Assembly: GCF_900120405.1 (NCBI RefSeq)
Contig: NZ_LT635492.1
Span: 577,478 to 641,477 of the forward strand
DNA from: Urinicoccus massiliensis
GTDB lineage: Bacteria; Bacillota; Clostridia; Tissierellales; Peptoniphilaceae
DNA length: 64,000 bases
Reading direction: 5' to 3'
The notes under the pieces are model-generated. The model was not told the DNA's origin, ran no database searches, and was given only the letters and a program-made list of their open reading frames with translations. This document shows, piece by piece, positions 1,085 to 23,742 of this stretch (positions are counted from its first letter, which is position 1; every line of letters begins with the position of its first letter). The translations under genes were made by a program, and so were the position numbers.

Positions 1085-2170
1085 CTAGTGGTTTTTCGAA
1101 CGTCCCAGTAAGATCCCGGCAGCCACCAGACAAACCCACAATGAGGTTCCCCCATAGGAAATAAAGGGAAGGGTCAAGCCTGTAACTGGTAGGATCCCAA
1201 TGGTAACTCCCATATTAAAAAACGCTTGAACGGAAATACATATGGTAATTCCCGTTGCGATTAATTGCTCATAAAGATTTTTACACCGACCGGCAATTTG
1301 CAAGCCCGAAAGAGTAAAGAGAAAATAGAGGAGGACCACAAAGGTCGTTCCTAAAAATCCCCATTCTTCTCCAATAATGGGAAAGATAAAGTCATTGTAA
1401 CTCATGGGCAAGTAGCCTTGTTTTAACCGGCTATTTAAATAGCCCACGCCCCAAAAACCTCCAATGCCATGGGCAAAAAGCGAATTGGCCAATTGCCAGT
1501 CCGTATCCTGGATGTCATCAAAGGGGTCTATAAAGCTCATCATTCTTTCCATCCGATAGGGCATCATCCGAATCATGATAAAGGCCAGGGCTCCCCCACC
1601 CAACCCCGATAGGGCATATTGGTAGGGCTCCATTCCCAGGACGAAAAAGAGGGACATAAGGCTTAGGCCAATAACCATACCTGTGGAAAAGTCTTTTAAA
1701 ATAACCAAACCCGTCGATAGTCCAATTATACCAATAATCATGGCAAATGTCTTAAATTTTCTAGTGGTCCGTCGGTTTTTAACCAAATAATCGCTTAAGT
1801 AAAAAATGGACGCATACTTTAAGAGGTCTGAAGGCATAAACTCAAAGCCAACCAGGGGGATTTGTAGCCAGCGGACACTGTTGTAGTGGCTGACCCCCAG
1901 GGGGGTGTAGAGTAGGGCACAGAGAAAGACGCTTAGGGCGAAAAAGGGCAGGCTCATCCGCCGGATAAAGTCTATAGACAGCCTGGAGGCAAAGACAAAA
2001 AAGACCAGGCCTGTAATTAAAAAGACCAGGTGTCTTTTGATAAAGTGGAGGTTGTTTCCCATCTTAGCCAGGCCCTCATAGGAAGAGGCACTGGCTACAA
2101 ATAAAACGCCGACAATTAAAAGTAGGACAATGGAAAGCAAGAGTCCCAGGTGGAAGGGCCGTTTTTTCAT
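1085..2170 (-). CDS. ftsW: FtsW/SEDS-family peptidoglycan polymerase
   Basis: A SEDS-family polytopic membrane protein that polymerises lipid II at the division site, working with a class B PBP. The 361 residues hold about ten hydrophobic segments. The C-terminal family signature ending in LPFISYGGTSL is present, as is the conserved segment around PSDLLKYASI. The start has a strong GGAGGAGG site inside the end of murD. The gene sits between murD and murG as in other dcw clusters. SpoVE, the sporulation paralogue, is the main alternative name, and the sequence alone does not separate the two. Confidence 0.93.
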   Translation of the reverse strand: MKKRPFHLGLLLSIVLLLIVGVLFVASASSYEGLAKMGNNLHFIKRHLVFLITGLVFFVFASRLSIDFIRRMSLPFFALSVFLCALLYTPLGVSHYNSVRWLQIPLVGFEFMPSDLLKYASIFYLSDYLVKNRRTTRKFKTFAMIIGIIGLSTGLVILKDFSTGMVIGLSLMSLFFVLGMEPYQYALSGLGGGALAFIMIRMMPYRMERMMSFIDPFDDIQDTDWQLANSLFAHGIGGFWGVGYLNSRLKQGYLPMSYNDFIFPIIGEEWGFLGTTFVVLLYFLFTLSGLQIAGRCKNLYEQLIATGITICISVQAFFNMGVTIGILPVTGLTLPFISYGGTSLWVCLVAAGILLGRSKNH

Positions 2171-3455: not shown

Positions 3456-4435
3456 CGAACCACCCCATAAATTAAGAGAAGATAGGCCAGGAAGCAAAGG
3501 AGGATGGATGTCAGGACAAAGGCCTTAACCACCTTCTTTTCATGCCAGCCCTTTTGCTCGTAGTGGTGGTGGAGGGGGCTCATGAGAAAGATCCGCTTCC
3601 CTGTCAATTTAAAGGAAAGAACTTGGAGGATGACAGACAGGGTCTCCATAAAATAAATACCTCCTGCCAGGGGAAGTAAAAGAGGCAGCTGCAACAAGAC
3701 AGCCATGGCTGCCACGGCTCCTCCCAGGGCCAAGGACCCTGTGTCTCCCATAAACACTTTTGCCGGATACTTGTTGTAGACCAAAAATCCTGCCAAGGAC
3801 CCCACCAACAAAAGGGCAAAACTCCCAATGGTGGGATGGTTCAAGGCATGGGCCGCCAGGGCAAAAAAGATAGCGACCGTAATGGTAATGGAGCTGGACA
3901 AACCGTCCAGGCCGTCTGTCAGGTTGACTGAATTTACCGTTCCCACCACTACAAAAATAATAAAGGGAATGTAAAAGGCTCCCAGGTCCCAACGGGATTG
4001 GATAAAGGGAACAATAATTTCTGTAGATAGTTCCCTGCTTTTGGATTGGACAAAGACCAAGACAAAGGCAATGATGATTTGGCAAAGGAGTTTTTGCAGG
4101 GCTGTAAACCCCAGGTTCCTCTTTTTCACCACCTTGATGTAGTCGTCAAAAAAACCGACCAAGCCAAAGGCCAGGGTGGAAAAAATTAAGAGGAGGCCTT
4201 CAATGTTTAAAAGGCCAAAAACCGGAATCCCCAGGCAAAGGGTCAGGAGGAAGATGATTCCTCCCATGGTGGGTGTCCCCTCCTTAACCAGGTGGGAGCT
4301 GGGTCCATCATCCCGGATACTCTGTCCTGCATTTAATCTTTTTAATTGTGGTAGGACAAGTCGTCCCACCAGGGCGGAGCAAATAAAGGCTCCCAAAAGA
4401 ATCATGATATTTTTCAGATTAAAAATCTCTATCAT
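3452..4435 (-). CDS. mraY: MraY, phospho-MurNAc-pentapeptide translocase
   Basis: Integral membrane enzyme that makes lipid I from UDP-MurNAc-pentapeptide and undecaprenyl phosphate. The sequence has the family motifs GTPTMGGI, FGLVGFFDDYIK, NLTDGLDGL and FMGDTGSLALGG, and the C-terminal PLHHHYEQKGW. The 327 residues match family length. Its start overlaps the upstream PBP stop by ATGA and its stop overlaps the murD start, so the three genes are likely translationally coupled. Confidence 0.96.
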   Translation of the reverse strand: MIEIFNLKNIMILLGAFICSALVGRLVLPQLKRLNAGQSIRDDGPSSHLVKEGTPTMGGIIFLLTLCLGIPVFGLLNIEGLLLIFSTLAFGLVGFFDDYIKVVKKRNLGFTALQKLLCQIIIAFVLVFVQSKSRELSTEIIVPFIQSRWDLGAFYIPFIIFVVVGTVNSVNLTDGLDGLSSSITITVAIFFALAAHALNHPTIGSFALLLVGSLAGFLVYNKYPAKVFMGDTGSLALGGAVAAMAVLLQLPLLLPLAGGIYFMETLSVILQVLSFKLTGKRIFLMSPLHHHYEQKGWHEKKVVKAFVLTSILLCFLAYLLLIYGVVR

Positions 4436-6786
4436 TGTTCTTCCTCGTTTCTATTGTTTTCTTTTACTTTCTTTTTGTCTTTCTTGGTCTTGTTTTTCTT
4501 GTTTTTGTCCGGCTTGGGCCTGTTTTCATCAGCCTGTCTGGCCTGGTCTTGGTTTAGGGCCGGTTCAAAGTAAAGTTCCATGGGCTTTTTCCAAGAAATC
4601 ACCTCTCCAGGTTGGGGAACCTGTTTTACCAATTGCCCACTGCCATGGACGGTATATTCTACTTCCAAGGGTTTCAAGATTTCCTTGACTTCTTCCAGGC
4701 TCTTGCCCATTAAAATGGGCATGGTCAAGGCATTGCTATTGTTGGGATTCAAGTATAAATCCACAATGGTTCCTGTATTCACCGTAGTTCCCGGTGCTGG
4801 CGACTGGTTGGTCACCATGGTAAAGTCATTCATACCAGTATATTCCGTATTGAATTTCAGGCCCTTTTCCGACAGGATCCGGCCTGCATCTCCAATGAGC
4901 ATATTTCTTACATCCGGTACTTCCACTTCAATTTTCTTTTGGGTGTCATTGACCCGGTCACTTTTTTCATAGCCCTCGTAGGAGAGGATTTCTCCCAGCA
5001 TTTGTCCGGCATAGGGAGCTGCAACAGCCCCACCATAGTAGCCATTTTGCGACTCTTGAACGATGAGCAAGAGGGTGTATTTGGGTTTTTCAATGGGAGC
5101 CACTCCCACAAAAGAGGAAATGTATTTGTTTTCTTCATAGCCCCCATTTTTGGAGACCTTGTTGGCTGTTCCCGTCTTTCCACCAATCCGATAGCCCGGC
5201 ACAGCAGCCCGGCTTCCTCCCCCTTCAGTTACAACTTTTTCCATGAGTTCCACCATGGTCTTGGAGGTTTCCTTGGAAATAACTTGTCGTTTAACCCGGG
5301 GTTTATAGACTTGGACTGGTTTGTTGTCAATGGTTTCAATGTCTTTTAAGACATGGGGCACCATTAAATTTCCCCCGTTGACAACGGCACTGACTGCATT
5401 GATCAACTGGATGGGTGTAGTGGCAATCCCATGACCAAAGCTCACAGTATCCTGTTGGAGCTTGGACACCTTGTGGAGGTCTTCAGGTATCATCCCCTCC
5501 ACCTCTCCCGGCAGGTCGATGCCGGTTTTTTGGCCAAAGCCAAAGGCATGAATATAGCGGTTCATCCGGTCCAGGCCCAGTTCACGACCAATCCGGACAA
5601 AGGTTACATTACAACTCTTGGCATAGCCCTCTTCCATGGTAATGTCGCCATGGGGGTGGGGCAAGGACGAGCACCGAATGGGTCCTCCCGGAACATCTCT
5701 TACATAGCCCGAACAATAGTAGTGCTTGTCTTTGGTGGTGGTGTGTTCCTCCAGGGCCGCTGCCGCCGTAATGGTTTTAAAGGTTGACCCCGGTTCGTAC
5801 ATATCGTTGATGCAAAAATTTCGCCAATTGTCAAACCAGACCTTGGTTTTTTCTTCCCCGGTTAAATTTTCCCATTCCCTTTGTTGTCGTTTGTTTTGAG
5901 GCTTCTTGGGAAAGTTCAGGTTGTAGTCGTCCTGGTTGGTCATGGCCACAATGGCCCCGGTGTCCACTTCTTGGACAATGACATTAATGGCCTTGGCCTT
6001 AACTTCTTCCTTGGCCTTTTTGGCAATGTCTTCCACAATTCCCTGGATGGATTCATCCAAGGTCAGGCGGACATTTAGCCCCTGGGTAGGGAGGTTGCTT
6101 TGGTCCTCTTCCATGGTCAAGGCTTGGTTTTTGGCATCTCTCAAGCCCACTCTTTTCCCCAACATTCCTGCCAGCTGGTCATTGTAGTATTTTTCCACCC
6201 CATAGGTTCCATAACCGTCCTGGTCCATAAAACCAATTAGGTGGGAGGCCAGGTTGTTGGCGGGATAAAAGCGCTTTTGTTGGTCTTGGATAAAGACCCC
6301 CCTCAGGTCTGCATTTTGAATATTCAAAGAAGTGGCCCGGTCAATATCCTTGGCCAAGACAACTTCCCCCTTGGGACTTTCCTTGTACCTGTCGTAGATT
6401 TCTTCCTTGGAAAGGTCCAGGAGGCTGGCCAGTTTATTTAAAACCTGGTCCAGGGCTTCTTGGTCCAAGGCCCCCTTTTTCATAAAGGAGTTCTTATTCA
6501 GGGTCACAGTAGAGGCAGAAATATTCACGGCCAACTTCTTGCCCTTTCGATCTAAAATATAGCCCCGGTCCGGTTGTAAAACCTCGTTTCTGGACATTTG
6601 AGTCAGGGCCTTCTTGGCAATGCTATTGGAATCCAAGACTTGTAGCTTGTACAGGCGGATAATTAGTAAACAAAATAAACACGTTGCTAGAAAAAGTAAA
6701 AAGAAAATTTTCCCGCGCCGTTTTGCGCCATTTGATTTTCTTCCACCCTTTTTTGCAACGTGTTGATATCTATGGCGTGATTTCAA
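4432..6786 (-). CDS. ftsI: Class B penicillin-binding protein with two PASTA domains (FtsI/PBP2x/SpoVD type)
   Basis: Septal transpeptidase that crosslinks peptidoglycan, anchored by one N-terminal membrane segment near residues 28-48. All three catalytic motifs are intact: STFK within EPGSTFKTI, SCN within AKSCNVTF, and KTG within GGKTGTANK. Two C-terminal PASTA repeats follow (starting near VPDVRNM and MPILMGK), then a lysine/glutamate-rich tail. The start is TTG at 6784-6786, preceded by GGGGAGGG at good spacing and overlapping the ftsL stop. At 784 residues it is larger than E. coli FtsI but typical for Gram-positive PASTA proteins. It contrasts with the degenerate class A PBP at 19797. 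Confidence 0.92.
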   Translation of the reverse strand: MKSRHRYQHVAKKGGRKSNGAKRRGKIFFLLFLATCLFCLLIIRLYKLQVLDSNSIAKKALTQMSRNEVLQPDRGYILDRKGKKLAVNISASTVTLNKNSFMKKGALDQEALDQVLNKLASLLDLSKEEIYDRYKESPKGEVVLAKDIDRATSLNIQNADLRGVFIQDQQKRFYPANNLASHLIGFMDQDGYGTYGVEKYYNDQLAGMLGKRVGLRDAKNQALTMEEDQSNLPTQGLNVRLTLDESIQGIVEDIAKKAKEEVKAKAINVIVQEVDTGAIVAMTNQDDYNLNFPKKPQNKRQQREWENLTGEEKTKVWFDNWRNFCINDMYEPGSTFKTITAAAALEEHTTTKDKHYYCSGYVRDVPGGPIRCSSLPHPHGDITMEEGYAKSCNVTFVRIGRELGLDRMNRYIHAFGFGQKTGIDLPGEVEGMIPEDLHKVSKLQQDTVSFGHGIATTPIQLINAVSAVVNGGNLMVPHVLKDIETIDNKPVQVYKPRVKRQVISKETSKTMVELMEKVVTEGGGSRAAVPGYRIGGKTGTANKVSKNGGYEENKYISSFVGVAPIEKPKYTLLLIVQESQNGYYGGAVAAPYAGQMLGEILSYEGYEKSDRVNDTQKKIEVEVPDVRNMLIGDAGRILSEKGLKFNTEYTGMNDFTMVTNQSPAPGTTVNTGTIVDLYLNPNNSNALTMPILMGKSLEEVKEILKPLEVEYTVHGSGQLVKQVPQPGEVISWKKPMELYFEPALNQDQARQADENRPKPDKNKKNKTKKDKKKVKENNRNEEEQ

Positions 6787-16893: not shown

Positions 16894-17562
16894 TTATCTT
16901 TCCTCCATCTTGTCCAGTAAAATTTTTTCTCCTAAAATTGGGGCCACACCCTGGCTTATGGTCCTTATATCCACCTGGCCACTGGTAAAATTTTGGAGTA
17001 AATCTTCCAGGGCCGGCCGTCTTTTTTCCTCAACCAGGACCTTGTAGGTAACTTTTTCCAGGTAGGTCCTTTCCTCCACTTGGAACTTGGCCTGGTCCAG
17101 TTGAAAGTCCAGGGTCCCCTGCTGGCTGTAGTCAAATTCCACCTCCAAGAGGTCCACAGACTCCCAATCCACCAACTTCCCTTGGTCCAGGGCCAACTGG
17201 GCGGCCAGGGTGTAGGCCTTAACCAGGCCTCCCTTTCCCAAGAGGATGCCTCCAAAATACCGGACCACCACAATACAGACACAGTCAACTCCCCCCTGCT
17301 GGATGCTGGTTAAAATTGGCAGACCTGCTGTGGACTTGGGTTCATTGTCATCGTCATAGCGCTCCAAAATTTCTTGGCTGATCCGGTAGGCCGACACATG
17401 GTGGCGGGCCTGGGGGTGGAGCTTTTTGATCTTGTCAATATAGGCCAGGGCCTCTTCTTCATTTTTTATATGGATTGCATAGCCAATAAAGCGTGACTTT
17501 TTCATGGTGTGTTCTGCAATCCCTTCATAGGCAAGAGACTTCACTGCTTCCCTCCTGTCCAT
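16894..17562 (-). CDS. yigZ: YigZ/IMPACT family protein
   Basis: The N-terminal IMPACT domain is recognisable from KKSRFIGYA, HHVSAYRI, DDDNEPKSTAGLPIL and VVRYFGGILLGKGGLVKAY. A C-terminal DUF1949-like ferredoxin-fold domain follows. Relatives of this domain take part in the GCN2 response in eukaryotes, but the bacterial role is unclear. It has 222 residues. Its start overlaps the hflX stop by 22 bases. Confidence 0.93.
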   Translation of the reverse strand: MDRREAVKSLAYEGIAEHTMKKSRFIGYAIHIKNEEEALAYIDKIKKLHPQARHHVSAYRISQEILERYDDDNEPKSTAGLPILTSIQQGGVDCVCIVVVRYFGGILLGKGGLVKAYTLAAQLALDQGKLVDWESVDLLEVEFDYSQQGTLDFQLDQAKFQVEERTYLEKVTYKVLVEEKRRPALEDLLQNFTSGQVDIRTISQGVAPILGEKILLDKMEER

Positions 17563-18767
17563 TTTTCCATATCTTCCCTTAAAAATTCTCCCTTCAAAAG
17601 GCTCCCCTTTTCATTGTAGGAAACCTGGGCCTGGGGATAGTCCTTAAGGGCCTGGTTCAAAAGTCCCTGGTCTTGAAAGCTAAAAAAGATTTCCCCTTGG
17701 ACCCATTGGTCTCCCAAGAGGTCCACCAGGGCCTCTTCCAACTTTTCCACCGGGTCATTTAGGGCCGAATAAAACAAGAGCTTGTCTGGCCTGGGCTGGA
17801 TGACCTGGGGCCTCATGTCAGGTCGGTCAATCTTATTAAAAACTGTCAACCTGGGAATGTCCATCAGGTCCAGGTCCTTTAAAATCTTCAGGGTCTCCAT
17901 GTAATCTTTTTGCAAGCTTTCAGATTGGCCATCCAGGACATGGACCAGGGCTGAAGAATTTTTCAGCTCATCCAGGGTAGATTGGAAGGCCTCCATTAAA
18001 GTTTCTGGTAGGTCGCTGATAAAGCCCACCGTATCTGCCAGGATCACCGGCCGCTTGTCCAGGAGCTTCACCGACCTTAGGCTGGTGTCCAGGGTGGCAA
18101 AAACCATGTCCTTGACAAAGACCCGCTTGTCCGACTCCTGGCCCAAAAGGGCATTCATCATGGTGGACTTGCCAGCATTGGTATAGCCTACAAAACTCAC
18201 CAGGGGGACCTGGCTTTTTTTCCTCTGCTTTAATTGTTCCTGTCTTTGGCTCTTGATTTCCTCTAGCCGACTTTGGATTTGGTGGATTTGCCGGTCAATC
18301 TTTCGCCGGTCCAGCTCCAATTTTTGCTCTCCTGGCCCCCGGGTACCAATGCCGCCCCCGGCCTTGGACAGGGAGTAGGATCCGATTAGGCGGCTCTTGC
18401 CATAGGTCAGCTGGGCCAAGAGGACCTGGAGCTTGGCCTGCTTGGTCCTGGCCCGGCTGGCAAAGATGTCCAATATTAAGTGGGTCCTGTCCATGACTTG
18501 AATGTCCAACTCTCTTTCCAGGTTCCTGAGCTGGAAGCCCTTGAGGTCATCATTGACCAAAACCAAGTCCGGGTCCAGGGACTGGATTAGGGCCTTTAAT
18601 TCCTCTAGTTTCCCCTTGCCAATATAATAGGGCCCCGGCTCCTTTAGATTTTGCGATAGCTCTGCCAAGACACACCCATTGTCTGCCTGGATCAGGGCCC
18701 GGGTTTCCTCCGGACTACTGGGACTTAAATTTGTTGTAAGTAAAATGACACCCTCTTTTTGGTCCAT
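17541..18767 (-). CDS. hflX: HflX, ribosome-associated GTPase
   Basis: GTPase that rescues stalled or stress-damaged ribosomes. The P-loop GYTNAGKSTMMNALL, the G2/G3 segment VFATLDTSLRS and DTVGFISDLP, and the NKID motif are present. The N-terminal HflX domain has the marker GGIGTRGPGEQKLELDRR. Length of 408 residues is normal. It is the first gene of hflX-yigZ-nadE and has its own promoter. Confidence 0.96.
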   Translation of the reverse strand: MDQKEGVILLTTNLSPSSPEETRALIQADNGCVLAELSQNLKEPGPYYIGKGKLEELKALIQSLDPDLVLVNDDLKGFQLRNLERELDIQVMDRTHLILDIFASRARTKQAKLQVLLAQLTYGKSRLIGSYSLSKAGGGIGTRGPGEQKLELDRRKIDRQIHQIQSRLEEIKSQRQEQLKQRKKSQVPLVSFVGYTNAGKSTMMNALLGQESDKRVFVKDMVFATLDTSLRSVKLLDKRPVILADTVGFISDLPETLMEAFQSTLDELKNSSALVHVLDGQSESLQKDYMETLKILKDLDLMDIPRLTVFNKIDRPDMRPQVIQPRPDKLLFYSALNDPVEKLEEALVDLLGDQWVQGEIFFSFQDQGLLNQALKDYPQAQVSYNEKGSLLKGEFLREDMEKWTGGKQ

Positions 18768-18881: not shown

Positions 18882-19637
18882 CTAGTCCTTTGTTTGGGTT
18901 TCTTCCTCTTTAAGGATCCTTTCAAGGCCTGCCAGGTCCCCCTGTCGAACCAGGTCTTGGGGAATGTCAAAAATCGTCAAGGCATGGGCCCAGCTCTCGG
19001 CCTCTCCATCTGGTCTCCGGTCTTTTTCGGGGACCAAGATAATGGAATAGGTCTCAACCTTCAAAGGGCTGGTGTCCATGATTTTTTGCAGGTCTTGGAG
19101 GATTTTTAAGGCCTCCTGGATTTGAGGTTCTTTAGAATAACCATAGGCCTGGGCTTGGACCCGGCTGGGAAAGTGGTTAAAGTCCACTTCCTGGTCCAGG
19201 GTCAGCTGGTCTTCCAGGTCGTCTTGGTCCAGGGGGCTTAGGTTAATTTTATAGGGAAAGTCATGGTCTTTTTCCAATTTTCTCCCATACTGGCGGAGCT
19301 GGTCTGTAAAGCGGATGTAGCTGTTAAAAATCCGGTTGGGATAGGAGTCGTACTTTAGCCGTCCCCGCCAGTCAAAGGCAAGACTAAACTTGGAGTCGAT
19401 ACTGTTTTTGTCCTGGAGCCAAACCATGTAGGCCCCATCTTTAAAATCATAGTAGGTCTTGGACCTGTCCAGGTCCAGGTCCCGGTAGTGGGTCTCAAGA
19501 TAGGTGTCCGCAGCCCGGTTGGCCAAATATTTTGACAGGGGGTTTCCATAAAATCCTGCCAGGATCCAAAGGGCCAAGATGACCACCAGGGCCAAGAGGG
19601 CCAATAAAATCCCCTTGACTATACTTTTCTTTTTCAT
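18882..19637 (-). CDS. YfjL-like membrane-anchored extracytoplasmic protein
   Basis: A 251-residue protein with one N-terminal membrane anchor (residues about 8-29) followed by an extracytoplasmic domain. The segment NPLSKYLANRAADTYLE and the later FKDGAYMVWL with NSIDSKFSL resemble the YfjL N-terminal domain of Bacillus; this is a by-eye match. No catalytic motif is visible. It is divergent from the PBP gene and ends in its own terminator. Confidence 0.6.
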   Translation of the reverse strand: MKKKSIVKGILLALLALVVILALWILAGFYGNPLSKYLANRAADTYLETHYRDLDLDRSKTYYDFKDGAYMVWLQDKNSIDSKFSLAFDWRGRLKYDSYPNRIFNSYIRFTDQLRQYGRKLEKDHDFPYKINLSPLDQDDLEDQLTLDQEVDFNHFPSRVQAQAYGYSKEPQIQEALKILQDLQKIMDTSPLKVETYSIILVPEKDRRPDGEAESWAHALTIFDIPQDLVRQGDLAGLERILKEEETQTKD

Positions 19638-19796: not shown

Positions 19797-22727
19797 ATGA
19801 AAAAAAGAATCCCTCGCTTTCATTTAAATAAAAACCGCCTGCTTCTTATTCTCCTGGGTTTGGCTTTTGCCTTGACCCTCCTTGTGGGGCTTTTTTCCAG
19901 CCTCTTGGTGGGAATTTTGTTTTCCATCCCCGATACGGACTTGAAAAACCTGTCCACCAGCTACTATCAAACGTCCAGTATCTATGATGAGTCAGGCAAC
20001 CTCTTGGAAAATATTGAATCTGAAGAATTCCGTACCATCATCCCCCTAAAGGATATGCCGGAGAACCTGCGAAAGTCCTTTATCGCCATTGAAGACAAGA
20101 GGTTTTACCAGCACCGGGGTCTGGACCCCAGGGGAATTGCCTCCAGTCTTTTAGATAATTTTCGGGCCGGATCCATGGTTCGGGGCGGGTCTACCATTAC
20201 CCAGCAATTGGCCCGGAATGTCTTCTTGAGCCAGGAAAAATCCCTGGACCGAAAAATCAAGGAGGCCTATCTTTCCCTGCGTCTTGAATCGGTCTTGTCC
20301 AAGGACCAAATTTTAGAAGCCTACTTAAACCGGATCAACCTGGGCCAAGGGGCCTACGGTGTCCAGGGGGCCAGCCAAACCTATTTTTCAAAAAATGCCA
20401 AGGACTTGACCCTGGCCCAATCGGCCCTCTTGGCTGGCATTGTTAAAAGTCCCCGGGACTACTCCCCCCTCTTAAGGGTTCCTGTGACGAAAAAAATGGA
20501 CCGGCCAGCCATTGGCCAACAGGAAATTTCCGGCGTGGACTACAACCTTTACTTAAATCCCAAGAGCCTGGACCGGCAAAAAATTGTCCTGGCCGAGCTC
20601 TACCGCCAGGGAAAAATTTCCAAAGAGGACTATGAAACTGCTAAGAAGGAAGATGTCTTGGCCTCCATTGTCCCCCTGCAAAAGAAACACCACAGCATGA
20701 GCTCCTATGCCATGGACCTCATTAAGGCCCAGGCCTCCCAGGAGCTGGCCAAAACCTACCAAATTTCCCTGGACGAGGCGGAACACAAGCTCTTTACCGG
20801 AGGCTACCATATTGAAACCAGCCTCAACCTGGACCTGCAAGGGAAAATCGAAAACTTTTACAAGCACTTTCTGGAAGACTACCTGGTCCAAACTTCCTAC
20901 CGAGAAGGAGCCCGGGCCTTGACCTTCCAAAGCAATGACCAGGGCCATGTGGTGGATGCCAATGGCGAAATCCTCTACCTGGCCAAGGACCAGGCCCTGG
21001 ATCCCCAGCTGCGGTTTTTTATCCCCACTAACCAGGTCTTTAATGACCAAGGCCAACTTTCTCTGCCGGCTTCCTACTTTTCCTTCCAAGCCCGGCACAT
21101 CTATATCAAGCCCCTCTATTCCATTGACAGCAACCATGTCCTAAAGACCTATGACCTGGGTCAATGGAAGTTGGAGGACGGGGCCAAGCACCAGGGAGAC
21201 CGGGTCTTGATTTCTAAAAACTTTTTAACCAGCCACCCAGACTTTATGGAAGTGACCCCCCAGGGCTATTCCTTTAACCCCAACTACTATAGTCCCAGCC
21301 AAGAAACCATCCAACCCCAACTATCCACCGTCCTGATTGACAACCAAACCGGCTATGTCCGGGCCATTATCGGCGGATTGGACATCCAGTCCAAGGGGGC
21401 CAAGCTCCTGAACCGGGCCACCATGAGCCCTCGAGTTCCGGGAACGGCCATCCTGCCCTTTAATGCCTATTTAACCGCCCTGGAATATGGAAAAAAACCT
21501 GCCACAATTTACGACGACGCCCTGGAAGAAAACGACGGAGTCTTTTGGCCGGAAAATCCCTCGGGCAAGTACTATGGCCTGGAAACCATGCGGAAAAACT
21601 TAGAACACGACTCCTATACAGTGCCTGTAAAAATTGTCAAGGACCTGGGCTTTAAACGTGTCCTGGTGACCCTTGCCAGGCTGGGGATCTACAAGCCCCG
21701 AACTCCCCGAGACGACTTTTTCGTCCAAGCCGATGAAGAGGTCTACAATGACCTGACCCTGGACTCCCTGGGTCTGGGCAATATGCGCAAGGGTACCACC
21801 TGCTACAACCTGGCCACCGGCTACTACGGTCTGGCTGCCGGAGGTAGCTACAAGGAGCCCACCATTATCAAGTCCATCAAGGACCCTTCCGGCAGTCTAA
21901 TCTACCAGAGCAAGAATCGGAAAAACAAGAAACTTTGCTCCAGAGAAAATGCTGCCATCCTGACAGACTTCCTCCGGACCAATGCCATCCGGGGCCAGGC
22001 CGCCGGAGTCAGTGTGAAAAATAATGCCCTGGCTGCCATCTATGGGGCAAATAAGTTTGCCAGCGACCAATGGCTCTTTGGCTACACCCCCTACTATACC
22101 ATTGGAACTTGGATGGGCTGCGACCAACCCAAGGTCTCCTTGAATTCCAACAAGGACTTTATGATAGACCTTTGGAACCAAGTTGCCTACCTGGCCCATA
22201 AGCCCCTAGAGTCCATCGAAAAATTCCCCCTACCTGACCAAATCCACTATGTCAACATCAGTGAAAAAAGCGGCCTTTTGGCCTCCTCCCAAACAGAAAG
22301 GGCCCGGGCCAACTATGACGAACTCTTTGAAGAGGGCCAAGAACCCACCAGCTACGACACCAAGCACCGGACCTACAAGGTCTGTCGCCTTTCAGGAAAA
22401 AGAATTACAAAATTCTGTCCCTATGATACAATTATCTTAAAGAGCTTTTACCAAAGGCCAGACCCCTACCAGGGGAAAAAGAGACCCGACAAGTTACCCA
22501 TGGATATGGAAAACATCGACCAGGACTTCTGCGACATCCACACCCGGGAATGGTTTGAAGACCAATTGGAAAAAGAAAGAGACCAGGCTCGAGAAAAAAG
22601 TCGAAAGCAAGACCGGCAAGGAAATCGAAAGAAAAAGAAGGACGATCAAAAAAAGGATCGGAAAAAACAGCAAGGAGGCTCCCGTGAAAGTAAGGAAAAG
22701 AATCAAACAAGTAAAAAGAGGAATTAG
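19797..22727 (+). CDS. Class A PBP with intact glycosyltransferase and degenerate transpeptidase domain
   Basis: 976 residues: one N-terminal membrane anchor (about 13-40), a GT51 domain, a penicillin-binding fold and a very basic C-terminal tail. The glycosyltransferase motifs are intact: ED at 99-100 in EDKRFYQHRG, GGSTITQQLARN, and LNRINLGQGAYGV. The transpeptidase fold is still alignable (RAIIGGL, NRAT, LFGYTPYYTIGTW), but all three catalytic motifs are changed. The SxxK serine and lysine are Thr550 and Leu553 (PGTAILPF), the SxN asparagine is Thr608 (SYT), and the KTG lysine is Ile748 (IYGAN). The protein is therefore predicted to polymerise glycan but not to crosslink it. The frame is open throughout with no frameshift, so it is not simply a pseudogene. 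It is one of few plus-strand genes here. Confidence 0.92.
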   Translation: MKKRIPRFHLNKNRLLLILLGLAFALTLLVGLFSSLLVGILFSIPDTDLKNLSTSYYQTSSIYDESGNLLENIESEEFRTIIPLKDMPENLRKSFIAIEDKRFYQHRGLDPRGIASSLLDNFRAGSMVRGGSTITQQLARNVFLSQEKSLDRKIKEAYLSLRLESVLSKDQILEAYLNRINLGQGAYGVQGASQTYFSKNAKDLTLAQSALLAGIVKSPRDYSPLLRVPVTKKMDRPAIGQQEISGVDYNLYLNPKSLDRQKIVLAELYRQGKISKEDYETAKKEDVLASIVPLQKKHHSMSSYAMDLIKAQASQELAKTYQISLDEAEHKLFTGGYHIETSLNLDLQGKIENFYKHFLEDYLVQTSYREGARALTFQSNDQGHVVDANGEILYLAKDQALDPQLRFFIPTNQVFNDQGQLSLPASYFSFQARHIYIKPLYSIDSNHVLKTYDLGQWKLEDGAKHQGDRVLISKNFLTSHPDFMEVTPQGYSFNPNYYSPSQETIQPQLSTVLIDNQTGYVRAIIGGLDIQSKGAKLLNRATMSPRVPGTAILPFNAYLTALEYGKKPATIYDDALEENDGVFWPENPSGKYYGLETMRKNLEHDSYTVPVKIVKDLGFKRVLVTLARLGIYKPRTPRDDFFVQADEEVYNDLTLDSLGLGNMRKGTTCYNLATGYYGLAAGGSYKEPTIIKSIKDPSGSLIYQSKNRKNKKLCSRENAAILTDFLRTNAIRGQAAGVSVKNNALAAIYGANKFASDQWLFGYTPYYTIGTWMGCDQPKVSLNSNKDFMIDLWNQVAYLAHKPLESIEKFPLPDQIHYVNISEKSGLLASSQTERARANYDELFEEGQEPTSYDTKHRTYKVCRLSGKRITKFCPYDTIILKSFYQRPDPYQGKKRPDKLPMDMENIDQDFCDIHTREWFEDQLEKERDQAREKSRKQDRQGNRKKKKDDQKKDRKKQQGGSRESKEKNQTSKKRN

Positions 22728-22836: not shown

Positions 22837-22925
22837 AAAAAGAATTGGCGACAATGATGTGTACCCTCTTTACTGGACAAACCAGTAAGGAGGGTACATA
22901 TCACAAAAGTCGTCAATTCTTTTTT
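22836..22925 (+). terminator. Two-tier long hairpin, convergent terminator
   Basis: An outer 17-base stem (22836-22852 with 22909-22925) encloses a 22-base inner stem (22855-22876 with 22882-22903) and a five-base loop. Each departure from perfect complementarity is a G-U pair in the plus-strand RNA. It ends in a T-run and separates convergent genes; the T-run overlaps the folD stop. Confidence 0.8.
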
Positions 22926-23742
22926 AATCCCTATGTTTTTTCAAGCAAGACTCCAATAAGAGGGTGTTGGTCAAGGCACCGACACCTCCTGGCACCGGGG
23001 TCACGACTTGACTGTCCTTGAAACCTTGGTAGTCCACATCCCCTACGAGTTTTCCATCCTTCATGCCCAAGCCAATGTCGATAACCAGGGCATGATCTCC
23101 TACATCTTCTGAATGGATACTATGGGCCCGGCCTGTGGCGGTAAAGACAATATCGGCCCTTTTTAGGTGGTCTTTTAGGTTTTTGGTCTTGGAATGGCAA
23201 AGGGTGACGGTGGCATTTTCTTTTAAAAGGAGGTGGAGGAGGGGTTTTCCCACCACAGTGGTCCGGTTGATGACCACCACTTCCTTGCCGCTTAAGTCTT
23301 GCCAGTAGGACTTACAGAGCATAAGGGCCGCCCTGGGTGTGGCGGGAATATGGTAGGGAGTCAGGCCACTGTAAAGAGCCCCTCGGTTGTAGAGGGTTAC
23401 CCCGTCTAGGTCCTTTTTGGGGTCTAGGTCCCTCTTGAGTTGGTCTTCCACTTCTTTAAAAATAGGTTCCAGTAAAAGAATCCCCCCGACTTGGTCATCT
23501 TTATTTTCCCTGGCAAAATCTTCCAAGATCTGGTCAGTCATCTGGTCATAATGGTGGGTCCGCAGCTTGATCCCCAAACTTTGAGCCGTCTTAACCAATC
23601 CCCTTTCATAGGACTTGGCTCCTGAATCCTCTCCAAAACGGAAAATACAGCATTCCTTGGTCCCATCCAGGGTCCCCTCTTCTATTTGTTTTTTAATTTT
23701 GTCCAGCAGGTCCTTTTTTATTTGGTCACTTCTTAATTCCAT
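22924..23742 (-). CDS. folD: FolD-like methylene-THF dehydrogenase/cyclohydrolase, divergent active site
   Basis: Interconverts methylene-, methenyl- and formyl-tetrahydrofolate in the canonical family. The dinucleotide-binding half looks normal: VVGKPLLHLLLKENATVTLCH and TPVPGGVGALTN. The substrate half is unusual. The family motif Y-x-x-x-K reads Y45-E-R-G-L49, so the catalytic Lys is Leu, though K51 two positions later remains. The conserved Gln of LVQLPLP is also replaced (ILLLEPIF). The Asp of KDLDG is kept. At 272 residues it is slightly short. It may be a diverged subfamily with altered cyclohydrolase activity. Confidence 0.88.
   Translation of the reverse strand: MELRSDQIKKDLLDKIKKQIEEGTLDGTKECCIFRFGEDSGAKSYERGLVKTAQSLGIKLRTHHYDQMTDQILEDFARENKDDQVGGILLLEPIFKEVEDQLKRDLDPKKDLDGVTLYNRGALYSGLTPYHIPATPRAALMLCKSYWQDLSGKEVVVINRTTVVGKPLLHLLLKENATVTLCHSKTKNLKDHLKRADIVFTATGRAHSIHSEDVGDHALVIDIGLGMKDGKLVGDVDYQGFKDSQVVTPVPGGVGALTNTLLLESCLKKHRD

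Follow-up and report, generated by a model that had tools for sequence, protein, structure and literature searches.

Why class A PBPs join glycosyltransferase (GT) and transpeptidase (TP) activities, and what role the TP domain has beyond crosslinking, is usually studied with engineered mutants. A locus in Urinicoccus massiliensis poses the same question in a native protein. Within the 64,000-nucleotide stretch of DNA analyzed here (the window), a class A PBP called A1 has lost its TP motifs while its GT51 motifs stand, and we ask what such a protein would do and whether its second domain is maintained. In a limited open-access literature search, no natural TP-dead class A PBP was found in titles or abstract openings.

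Domains and motifs of A1

A first-pass annotation of the window had described A1 as a class A PBP with an intact GT51 domain, three lost TP motifs, and a frame open for 976 codons, a description that the alignment, the Pfam matches, and the ORF check all bear out. The gene is a single open frame, with the following features in window coordinates.

19797..22727 (+): class A PBP with pseudo-transpeptidase domain, 976 aa, called A1 (ORF, Pfam, alignment)
19830..19922 (+): N-terminal helix, residues 12-42, putatively membrane spanning (predicted structure)
19995..20477 (+): GT51 glycosyltransferase domain, residues 67-227, motifs intact (PF00912, 207.8 bits)
20919..21296 (+): ~125-residue insertion separating linker from TP domain, residues 375-500 (alignment occupancy)
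21312..22196 (+): pseudo-transpeptidase domain, residues 506-800, modeled fold retained (PF00905, AlphaFold2)
21444..21455 (+): former SxxK, T550-A-I-L553 (alignment)
21609..21617 (+): former SxN, D605-S-Y607 (alignment)
22038..22046 (+): former KTG, I748-Y-G750 (alignment)
22050..22067 (+): clade-specific motif N752-K753-F-A-S756-D757, directly after the former KTG (clade conservation)

Transgly (PF00912) matches residues 67-227 and Transpeptidase (PF00905) residues 510-742, the latter scoring 43 bits where the cut-off is 22.1, while the PBP1A family model TIGR02074 reaches 431.8 bits, under its curated cut-off of 508.75. The GT51 signature is complete: EDKRFYQH carries the catalytic Glu of EDxxFxxHxG, and GGSTITQQ and RKIKE match GGST.TQQ and RKxxE. 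In an alignment of 169 class A PBP ORFs, among which the A1 gene itself occurs a second time, TAIL, DSY, and IYG occupy the places of SxxK, SxN, and KTG, so the active site of a class A PBP is gone from a protein that keeps the C-terminal PF00905 fold by both score and model. The replacement of the SxxK Ser and Lys by Thr550 and Leu553 and of the KTG Lys by Ile748 had been read correctly, as had the continued alignment of the GYTP block, which forms part of a D757...FGYTP stretch common to A1 and its intact relatives. Thr608, previously placed at the SxN Asn, was one residue out of register; the ungapped alignment puts SxN at D605-S606-Y607, so that neither the Ser nor the Asn survives. The annotation had allowed that another alignment might place an intact SxxK elsewhere, but there is no sign of one in A1, as the R-x-P-G-S-x-x-K-P block of intact relatives aligns without gaps.

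For the fold model, the A1 alignment was deepened with loci from a contig scan; among the 80 loci listed in that scan, at least seven (L077-L083) are near orthologues, and 33 further ones served for this depth alone. AlphaFold2 gives the pseudo-TP domain a mean pLDDT of 86.9, with 22 of the 30 ten-residue blocks of residues 501-800 at 90 or more, and superposition of the whole protein on 7u4h_B yields an rmsd of 2.8 over 564 residues. The model indicates that the TP fold is kept. The insertion at residues 375-500, which by alignment occupancy is present in A1 orthologues and missing from the second class A PBP of these genomes, is modeled at pLDDT 82-95 in ten-residue blocks.

Positions conserved at ≥95% in 103 intact relatives were taken as near-invariant and scored in 37 rows of the A1 clade described below (36 genomes plus Peptoniphilus harei's near-copy). 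Ten of 47 such TP positions are lost, K553, S605, K748, T749, and T751 included, and none of 35 in the GT domain; by this sequence comparison, the change is not a general drift of the whole protein. The catalytically intact second PBP, used as a control, has lost 5 of 46 TP and 6 of 35 GT positions, with no SxxK, SxN, or KTG residue among them.

Phylogeny of the loss and constraint on the domain

The sample comprised all 119 strong A1 matches in 130 genomes of the family. The KTG Lys is lost in all 35 readable members of one clade, which spans ten genera including that of P. harei; 14 of its 36 members have lost three motifs, and none keeps all three. All three are intact in the 80 readable orthologues from the rest of the family and in the 21 from other families. 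On GT-domain columns alone, the clade forms one branch with support of 100/100, recovered against all other rows in 100% of 200 bootstrap trees, which excludes a long-branch artifact of degenerate columns. This GT-only tree omits 11 of 81 earlier rows (L250, L075, L074, L049, L038, L076, L059, L048, L229, L256, and L254), the long GT-only rows among them. A1 falls together with the class A PBP found in the remainder of the order, and one change on the tree suffices for the loss of K748. The motif positions differ from genus to genus, and the former nucleophile position carries Ser, Thr, or Asn. On this sequence evidence, KTG was lost once, at the base of the ten-genus clade, and SxxK and SxN were lost repeatedly. 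Whether related genera share the substitutions had been proposed as a check, with recent local decay as the outcome that would undo the claim; the loss recurs across the clade, and since same-genus G001 and nine more genera share it in open frames, both local decay and sequencing error can be set aside.

Among 55 within-genus pairs from 3 genera, the dead domain has a median dN/dS of 0.153 (range, 0.04 to 0.38), and the TP domain of intact relatives has a median of 0.133 (97 pairs, 12 genera). These values indicate that the dead domain is under purifying selection, and it is full length in ten genera. Relative to its own GT domain it is somewhat less constrained, with a median dN_TP/dN_GT of 2.36 in the dead clade versus 1.81 in intact relatives. 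A1 therefore has the attributes of a pseudoenzyme under selection, its catalytic residues gone and purifying selection and the predicted fold retained. The first-pass view of a glycan polymerase whose noncatalytic TP domain is kept rather than freely decaying thus gains support from the sequence evidence.

Directly after the former KTG, the clade conserves N752, K753, and S756 (genus-weighted 0.90, 0.94, and 0.80), followed by D757, which is common to clade and intact relatives. N752 is found in 34 of 35 readable members and K753 in 30, with Glu (3/35) or Arg (2/35) at the remaining 753 positions. The A1 clade has nine newly conserved positions in the TP domain and one in the GT domain; by the same reference, the active paralogue A2 has 15 and 18. 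Such new conservation does not by itself establish a new function, and the larger numbers in A2 weaken any argument for one drawn from it.

Two neighbors frame the gene.

17541..18767 (-): HflX, divergent neighbor, marks the orthologous locus (neighborhood comparison)
22924..23742 (-): FolD, downstream neighbor (ORF, neighborhood comparison)

HflX is the landmark of the A1 locus both in the clade and among intact relatives, and it also flanks the GT-only remnants (265 and 296 aa) of the two genomes examined from genus g14. As the TP domain is missing there and the A1 gene is absent from genus g5, some lineages can dispense with the domain.

A second class A PBP and the reading of A1

A2, a further class A PBP of ~800 aa in the clade genomes, belongs to the Clostridioides difficile PBP1 type. 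Each of the 36 clade genomes encodes two or more GT51 proteins, and the family's 82 intact genomes have one each. SxxK, SxN, and KTG are intact in all 24 A2 proteins examined (17 from clade genomes, 7 from g5 and g14). A1 motif loss apparently followed the appearance of this second, fully equipped class A PBP in the lineage, though the link rests on one evolutionary event; in other families, seven sampled genomes have two GT51 proteins yet an intact A1 (G040, G042, G043, G051, G056, G058, and G059). The window has two further features of note.

4432..6786 (-): class B PBP, PGSTFK, SCN, and KTGTA intact, possible crosslinking partner (ORF)
1097..2140 (-): SEDS protein, FtsW/RodA family (PF01098 at G000:C12:578574-579617)

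Crosslinking need not fall to this class B PBP, as the first-pass annotation had supposed. Outside the window, the genome encodes a second class A PBP (L061; SSIK, SSN, and KTG intact); in all it has three class B PBPs with intact KTG, counting the one at 4432, as well as two YkuD L,D-transpeptidase-type proteins.

C. difficile PBP1, likewise of class A, makes the septum; its GT activity was needed for septum synthesis, and its TP activity was dispensable for division though needed for growth (PMC12539705). Its closest kinship is with A2, not A1. In the tree, the f206 proteins are sister to A2, and one of them, L273, matches C. difficile PBP1 at its published residues E137 and S487. The ~125-residue insertion of A1 is probably not the C. 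difficile GI domain: in an alignment judged by eye only, an insertion beside the GT domain like that of L273 lies in A2 and not in A1. RKxxE is replaced by RKxxD in all 24 A2 proteins, which could have made A2 a GT-dead partner; this was dropped because all seven f206 proteins share RKxxD and because C. difficile PBP1 has an essential GT activity (PMC12539705). A C. difficile-like mode of division that dispenses with FtsW/FtsI is likewise unsupported, with three SEDS proteins in the genome and a class B PBP in the window.

The reading we favor, with a probability of roughly 0.75, is that A1 is a glycan polymerase whose TP pseudoenzyme is kept as a scaffold or regulatory module, its crosslinks being made by other transpeptidases. 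The GT51 domain would polymerize glycan strands that A1 itself no longer crosslinks, the folded extracellular TP domain would serve as the scaffold or module, and the strands would be crosslinked most plausibly by A2 and class B PBPs, A2 having presumably relaxed the need for crosslinking by A1. GT activity, the lack of transpeptidation, absent or weak penicillin acylation, and the scaffold role are all inferred from sequence. A more specific version is tentative and, in our judgment, rather doubtful: after the gain of an A2-type protein, A1 may have become the polymerase half of a two-protein synthase, its dead domain rebuilt around GxNKFxSD to bind either a partner, perhaps A2 itself, or the nascent strand, so that class A polymerization and crosslinking would be split over two proteins.

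Slow decay, in which the TP domain is an outgoing remnant after takeover by A2, held only by fusion to a useful GT domain or as an aid to its folding, would account for the g14 remnants, the missing A1 of g5, the variation of motif positions between genera, and the raised dN_TP/dN_GT; we consider it unlikely given the low dN/dS, the full-length frame across ten genera, and the retention of N752 and K753. That same retention, maintained while the old catalytic residues drifted, together with the nine-to-one excess of newly conserved TP over GT positions, could instead point to a remodeled site with a new enzymatic activity or cell wall peptide binding through GxNKFxSD. This is improbable, as the old nucleophile position varies by member, 753 is not always Lys, and A2 has even more newly conserved positions, so that a structural role or shared ancestry explains the motif equally well. 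Eight of the 36 clade members (g9, g20, and g26) keep S550 and K553 and might acylate weakly, leaving the family only partly dead, but the same eight have Asn at the SxN Ser and have lost the KTG Lys and Thr, which makes this a very slim prospect and one inapplicable to the window protein. The earlier statement that A1 should not bind penicillin is likely correct for the window protein; it is not extendable to the whole clade because of these eight.

This clade of anaerobes, Peptoniphilus among them, is a natural experiment in which intact proteins of relatives, KTG loss, wider motif loss, domain loss, and gene loss can be compared. The prediction is that A1, at least in members without SxxK, is a peptidoglycan polymerase beyond the reach of beta-lactam acylation, and that a moenomycin-type GT inhibitor would be required to block it.

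Comparison with known systems

A1 resembles the PBP1A family (TIGR02074; PF00912 plus PF00905) in domain order, GT51 motifs, and TP fold and differs in the loss of all TP catalytic motifs and in its score below the TIGR02074 cut-off. Its best match is the Pbp1a crystal structure 7u4h (E of 4.5e-154 by sequence, Z of 46.7 by structure), in which SxxK, SxN, and KTG are intact. The entry is deposited as Chlamydia trachomatis; a stretch of 341 residues that it shares identically with G131 suggests an intact orthologue belonging to genus g21, within the family of A1.

Monofunctional glycosyltransferases of the MtgA/SgtB type are single GT51 domains that polymerize without crosslinking. A1 would work in a similar manner but has a complete, conserved second domain, and only the g14 remnants resemble such enzymes. 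C. difficile PBP1 is a class A PBP, as is A1, but a relative of A2.

Laboratory-made class A PBPs also combine an active GT with a dead TP domain (PMC4632607 and PMC12539705); there the substitutions are engineered, whereas A1 reflects a natural, clade-wide loss. According to PMC4632607, a class A PBP with active GT and mutationally inactivated TP supports crosslinking by pneumococcal PBP2b and PBP2x, an engineered precedent for the favored reading; counting against that reading, a mix of TP-dead and GT-dead E. coli PBP1B gave no significant crosslinking.

The A1 protein and its motifs across Peptoniphilaceae

A1 is a class A penicillin-binding protein (PBP) encoded by one uninterrupted frame in a genome of 2.09 Mb (G000).

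19797-22727, + strand: A1, class A PBP, 976 residues

PF00912 scores 207.8 bits over residues 67-227. PF00905, over residues 510-742, scores only 43 bits, which nevertheless exceeds its cut-off of 22.1. In this family the SxxK Ser acts as nucleophile, and transpeptidase (TP) activity is described as depending on residues from all three motifs (PMC4810414). Aligned with 169 class A PBP open reading frames, one of them the A1 gene refetched, A1 reads T550-A-I-L553 at the SxxK box, D605-S-Y607 at SxN, with Ser and Asn both gone, and I748-Y-G750 at KTG, all with gap-free flanks. The GT51 glycosyltransferase (GT) motifs are intact (EDKRFYQH, GGSTITQQ, and RKIKE). The alignment confirms the motif loss beside an intact GT51 domain reported by the first-pass annotation and corrects its SxN register, as the replacement it had placed at Thr608 falls one residue earlier without gaps. 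The core of its interpretation is also supported, and the finding is wider than it had claimed: we conclude that A1 carries a clade-wide, old, and selected pseudo-transpeptidase.

Among 130 sampled family genomes, 119 match A1 at E <= 1e-60. All 119 were fetched, and 118 remain for motif counts, G112 being a fragment that lacks the region. A degenerate A1 occurs in 36 of these, from ten genera (g1, g2, g3, g8, g9, g10, g18, g20, g23, and g26), and the KTG Lys is lost in 35 of 35 readable cases. All three motifs are lost in 14 of the 36; SxN alone is kept in 13 and SxxK alone in 8. The A1 of G147 has a split frame in which SxxK is gone, SxN is kept, and KTG is unreadable. This frame lies in pieces of 643 and about 290 aa (L189, L261), with another GT51 frame of 308 aa, and the split may be an assembly error in a genome that is 87% complete with 5% contamination. 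The other 82 family genomes have intact SxxK and SxN, with KTG intact in 80/80 readable. Elsewhere in the order, outside this family, 21/21 A1 orthologues are likewise intact. Of named organisms, Peptoniphilus harei has an A1 (L077) that shares 99.9% identity with its counterpart from G140, of degenerate genus g23, and the Anaerococcus marasmi protein (L083) has exactly the sequence found in G074, of intact genus g25. These names identify the family as Peptoniphilaceae.

A match at this threshold is absent from 11 of the 130 genomes: four of g14, three of g5, G114, G012, and G117 (65-81% complete), and G083 (99% complete). The last, from g25 (Anaerococcus), has no GT51 protein at all, either because of an assembly gap or because its class A PBPs have been lost naturally.

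Origin of the degenerate form

A phylogenetic tree was generated from GT columns only, so that degenerate columns cannot drive the grouping. One branch with 100/100 support splits the 15 sampled degenerate A1 proteins from all 55 other rows; it is recovered in 100% of 200 bootstrap trees and adjoins the intact genera g29, g36, and g60. On an earlier tree of 81 rows, loss of K748 needs one change, and loss of S550, K553, S605, and N607 needs four, three, three, and two, respectively, which suggests that KTG was lost first and that the remaining motifs decayed piecemeal.

The A1 locus is the same across the degenerate, intact, and GT-only forms. A divergent HflX lies beside A1 in 12/13 degenerate loci (the other one, L046, was retrieved with hardly any DNA upstream), in six of seven intact loci (L032 being the exception), in 3/3 intact loci of named organisms, and beside 2/2 GT-only remnants. 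In the window genome, one further hypothetical protein is seen here, with no match at 25 other compared loci.

18882-19637, - strand: 251-aa protein between HflX and A1

The GT-only remnants, of 265 aa (G014, L075) and 296 aa (G152, L250), come from the two g14 genomes, of four, that were examined at this locus; both also carry an intact second class A PBP (A2). In g5, A2 is the sole GT51 protein (3/3 genomes). As g14 and g5 group with g9 on A2 trees, the loss of the TP domain and of the gene, respectively, probably postdates catalytic loss. The g14 remnants represent a natural path by which a class A PBP becomes a monofunctional glycosyltransferase. In the sub-branch of G009, G020, G023, G026, G014, and G005, PF00905 gives three or four matches and SEDS proteins number two, against three in most of the sampled family; this sub-branch may have lost a pair made up of a SEDS protein and a class B PBP.

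Constraint on the dead domain

The main rival to a scaffold role of the dead domain is its slow decay, which is favored by the g14 and g5 lineages, where the domain and the gene are gone. Across residues 506-800 (Nei-Gojobori, within-genus pairs of moderate synonymous divergence), the dead domain has a median dN/dS of 0.153 (range 0.041-0.381; 55 pairs, 3 genera) and the intact domain one of 0.133 (0.018-0.357; 97 pairs, 12 genera), the pairs being non-independent. Set against its own GT domain, the dead domain is less constrained than intact ones are (dN ratio 2.36 versus 1.81). Judged from the selection on it, the domain probably serves as a scaffold.

Conservation counts used 37 rows, namely L077 and those of the 36 genomes, with equal genus weights and the Peptoniphilus of L077 kept separate from g23. 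The A1 clade has lost 10 of 47 near-invariant TP positions and 0 of 35 in GT, and nine TP positions and one GT position are newly conserved (>=80%). The active paralogue A2, used as a control with the same reference, has 15 and 18 newly conserved positions in TP and GT, which tempers the weight of those in A1. Its losses (5/46 TP, 6/35 GT) spare SxxK, SxN, and KTG and strike GT; the peculiarity of A1 is therefore the concentration of losses on the TP active site, with GT untouched. The clearest new residues lie in a GxNKFxSD motif directly past the former KTG: N752 (34 of 35 readable clade members), K753 (30 Lys, 3 Glu, and 2 Arg), and S756 (0.80 weighted).

An AlphaFold2 model of A1, built with 41 sequences, has a mean pLDDT of 86.9, with values >=90 in 22 of 30 ten-residue blocks of 501-800 and a weak loop at 531-534. 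This predicted fold leans on intact relatives in the alignment and is no proof of domain stability. In the PDB, the structure that fits best is 7u4h, with Z 46.7 and 2.8 A over 564 residues. Deposited as Chlamydia trachomatis Pbp1a, 7u4h has a 341-residue stretch identical to the class A PBP of G131 (g21, Peptoniphilaceae). Class A PBPs are reported as missing from Chlamydiae (PMC4810414), and contamination of an assembly is the probable source of the organism label.

A2, a further class A PBP

Each of the 36 clade genomes encodes two or more GT51 proteins, against one in each of the 82 intact family genomes. A2 was fetched from 17 clade genomes and from seven genomes of g5 and g14, and it keeps SxxK, SxN, and KTG in 24/24; from the GT51 counts, it would also be present in the other 19 clade genomes. 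The A2 of the window genome (L061) lies outside the window. A third GT51 protein, monofunctional and of 256 aa, accompanies A1 and A2 in G018 (G018:C105:1931-2425).

The association of A1 motif loss with A2 rests on a single evolutionary event. Having a second GT51 enzyme does not force motif loss, as seven sampled genomes of other families have two GT51 proteins and an intact A1. The second protein is monofunctional (246-251 aa) in G042, G043, G056, G058, and G059, a 685-aa frame in G040, and a class A PBP with every motif intact in G051.

From its motifs, A1 would polymerize glycan without crosslinking it, and that of the window species should escape penicillin acylation. Candidates for crosslinking its strands are A2, three KTG-intact class B PBPs, and two YkuD proteins. 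As described in PMC4632607, pneumococcal PBP2b and PBP2x crosslink alongside a class A PBP whose TPase has been inactivated by mutation, and TPase-dead and GTase-dead PBP1B of Escherichia coli fail to complement in vitro.

Among 391 sampled genomes from the class, the best matches of A2 outside the family come from seven genomes, all belonging to family f206 (E 1e-121 to 1e-136). The f206 proteins (L273-L279) keep the KTG Lys (7/7), and GT motif 3 is RKxxD, not RKxxE, in 24/24 A2 and 7/7 f206 proteins, the Clostridioides difficile PBP1 type included. In a quick tree, A2 and f206 group together at 99% SH-aLRT, although the branches are long. The lack of A2 in the rest of the family suggests a horizontal gain, with transfer possible in either direction. 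A class A PBP with a GI domain in Trichomonas vaginalis is described as acquired from a Peptoniphilus (PMC12539705); judged by that domain, it would be of the A2 type and not a pseudo-transpeptidase A1.

For C. difficile PBP1, the account in PMC12539705 has septum synthesis requiring GTase activity, with TPase activity dispensable for division and required for growth. Its published GT Glu 137 and SxxK Ser 487 occupy the same positions, 137 and 487, as the catalytic residues of L273, the f206 relative of A2.
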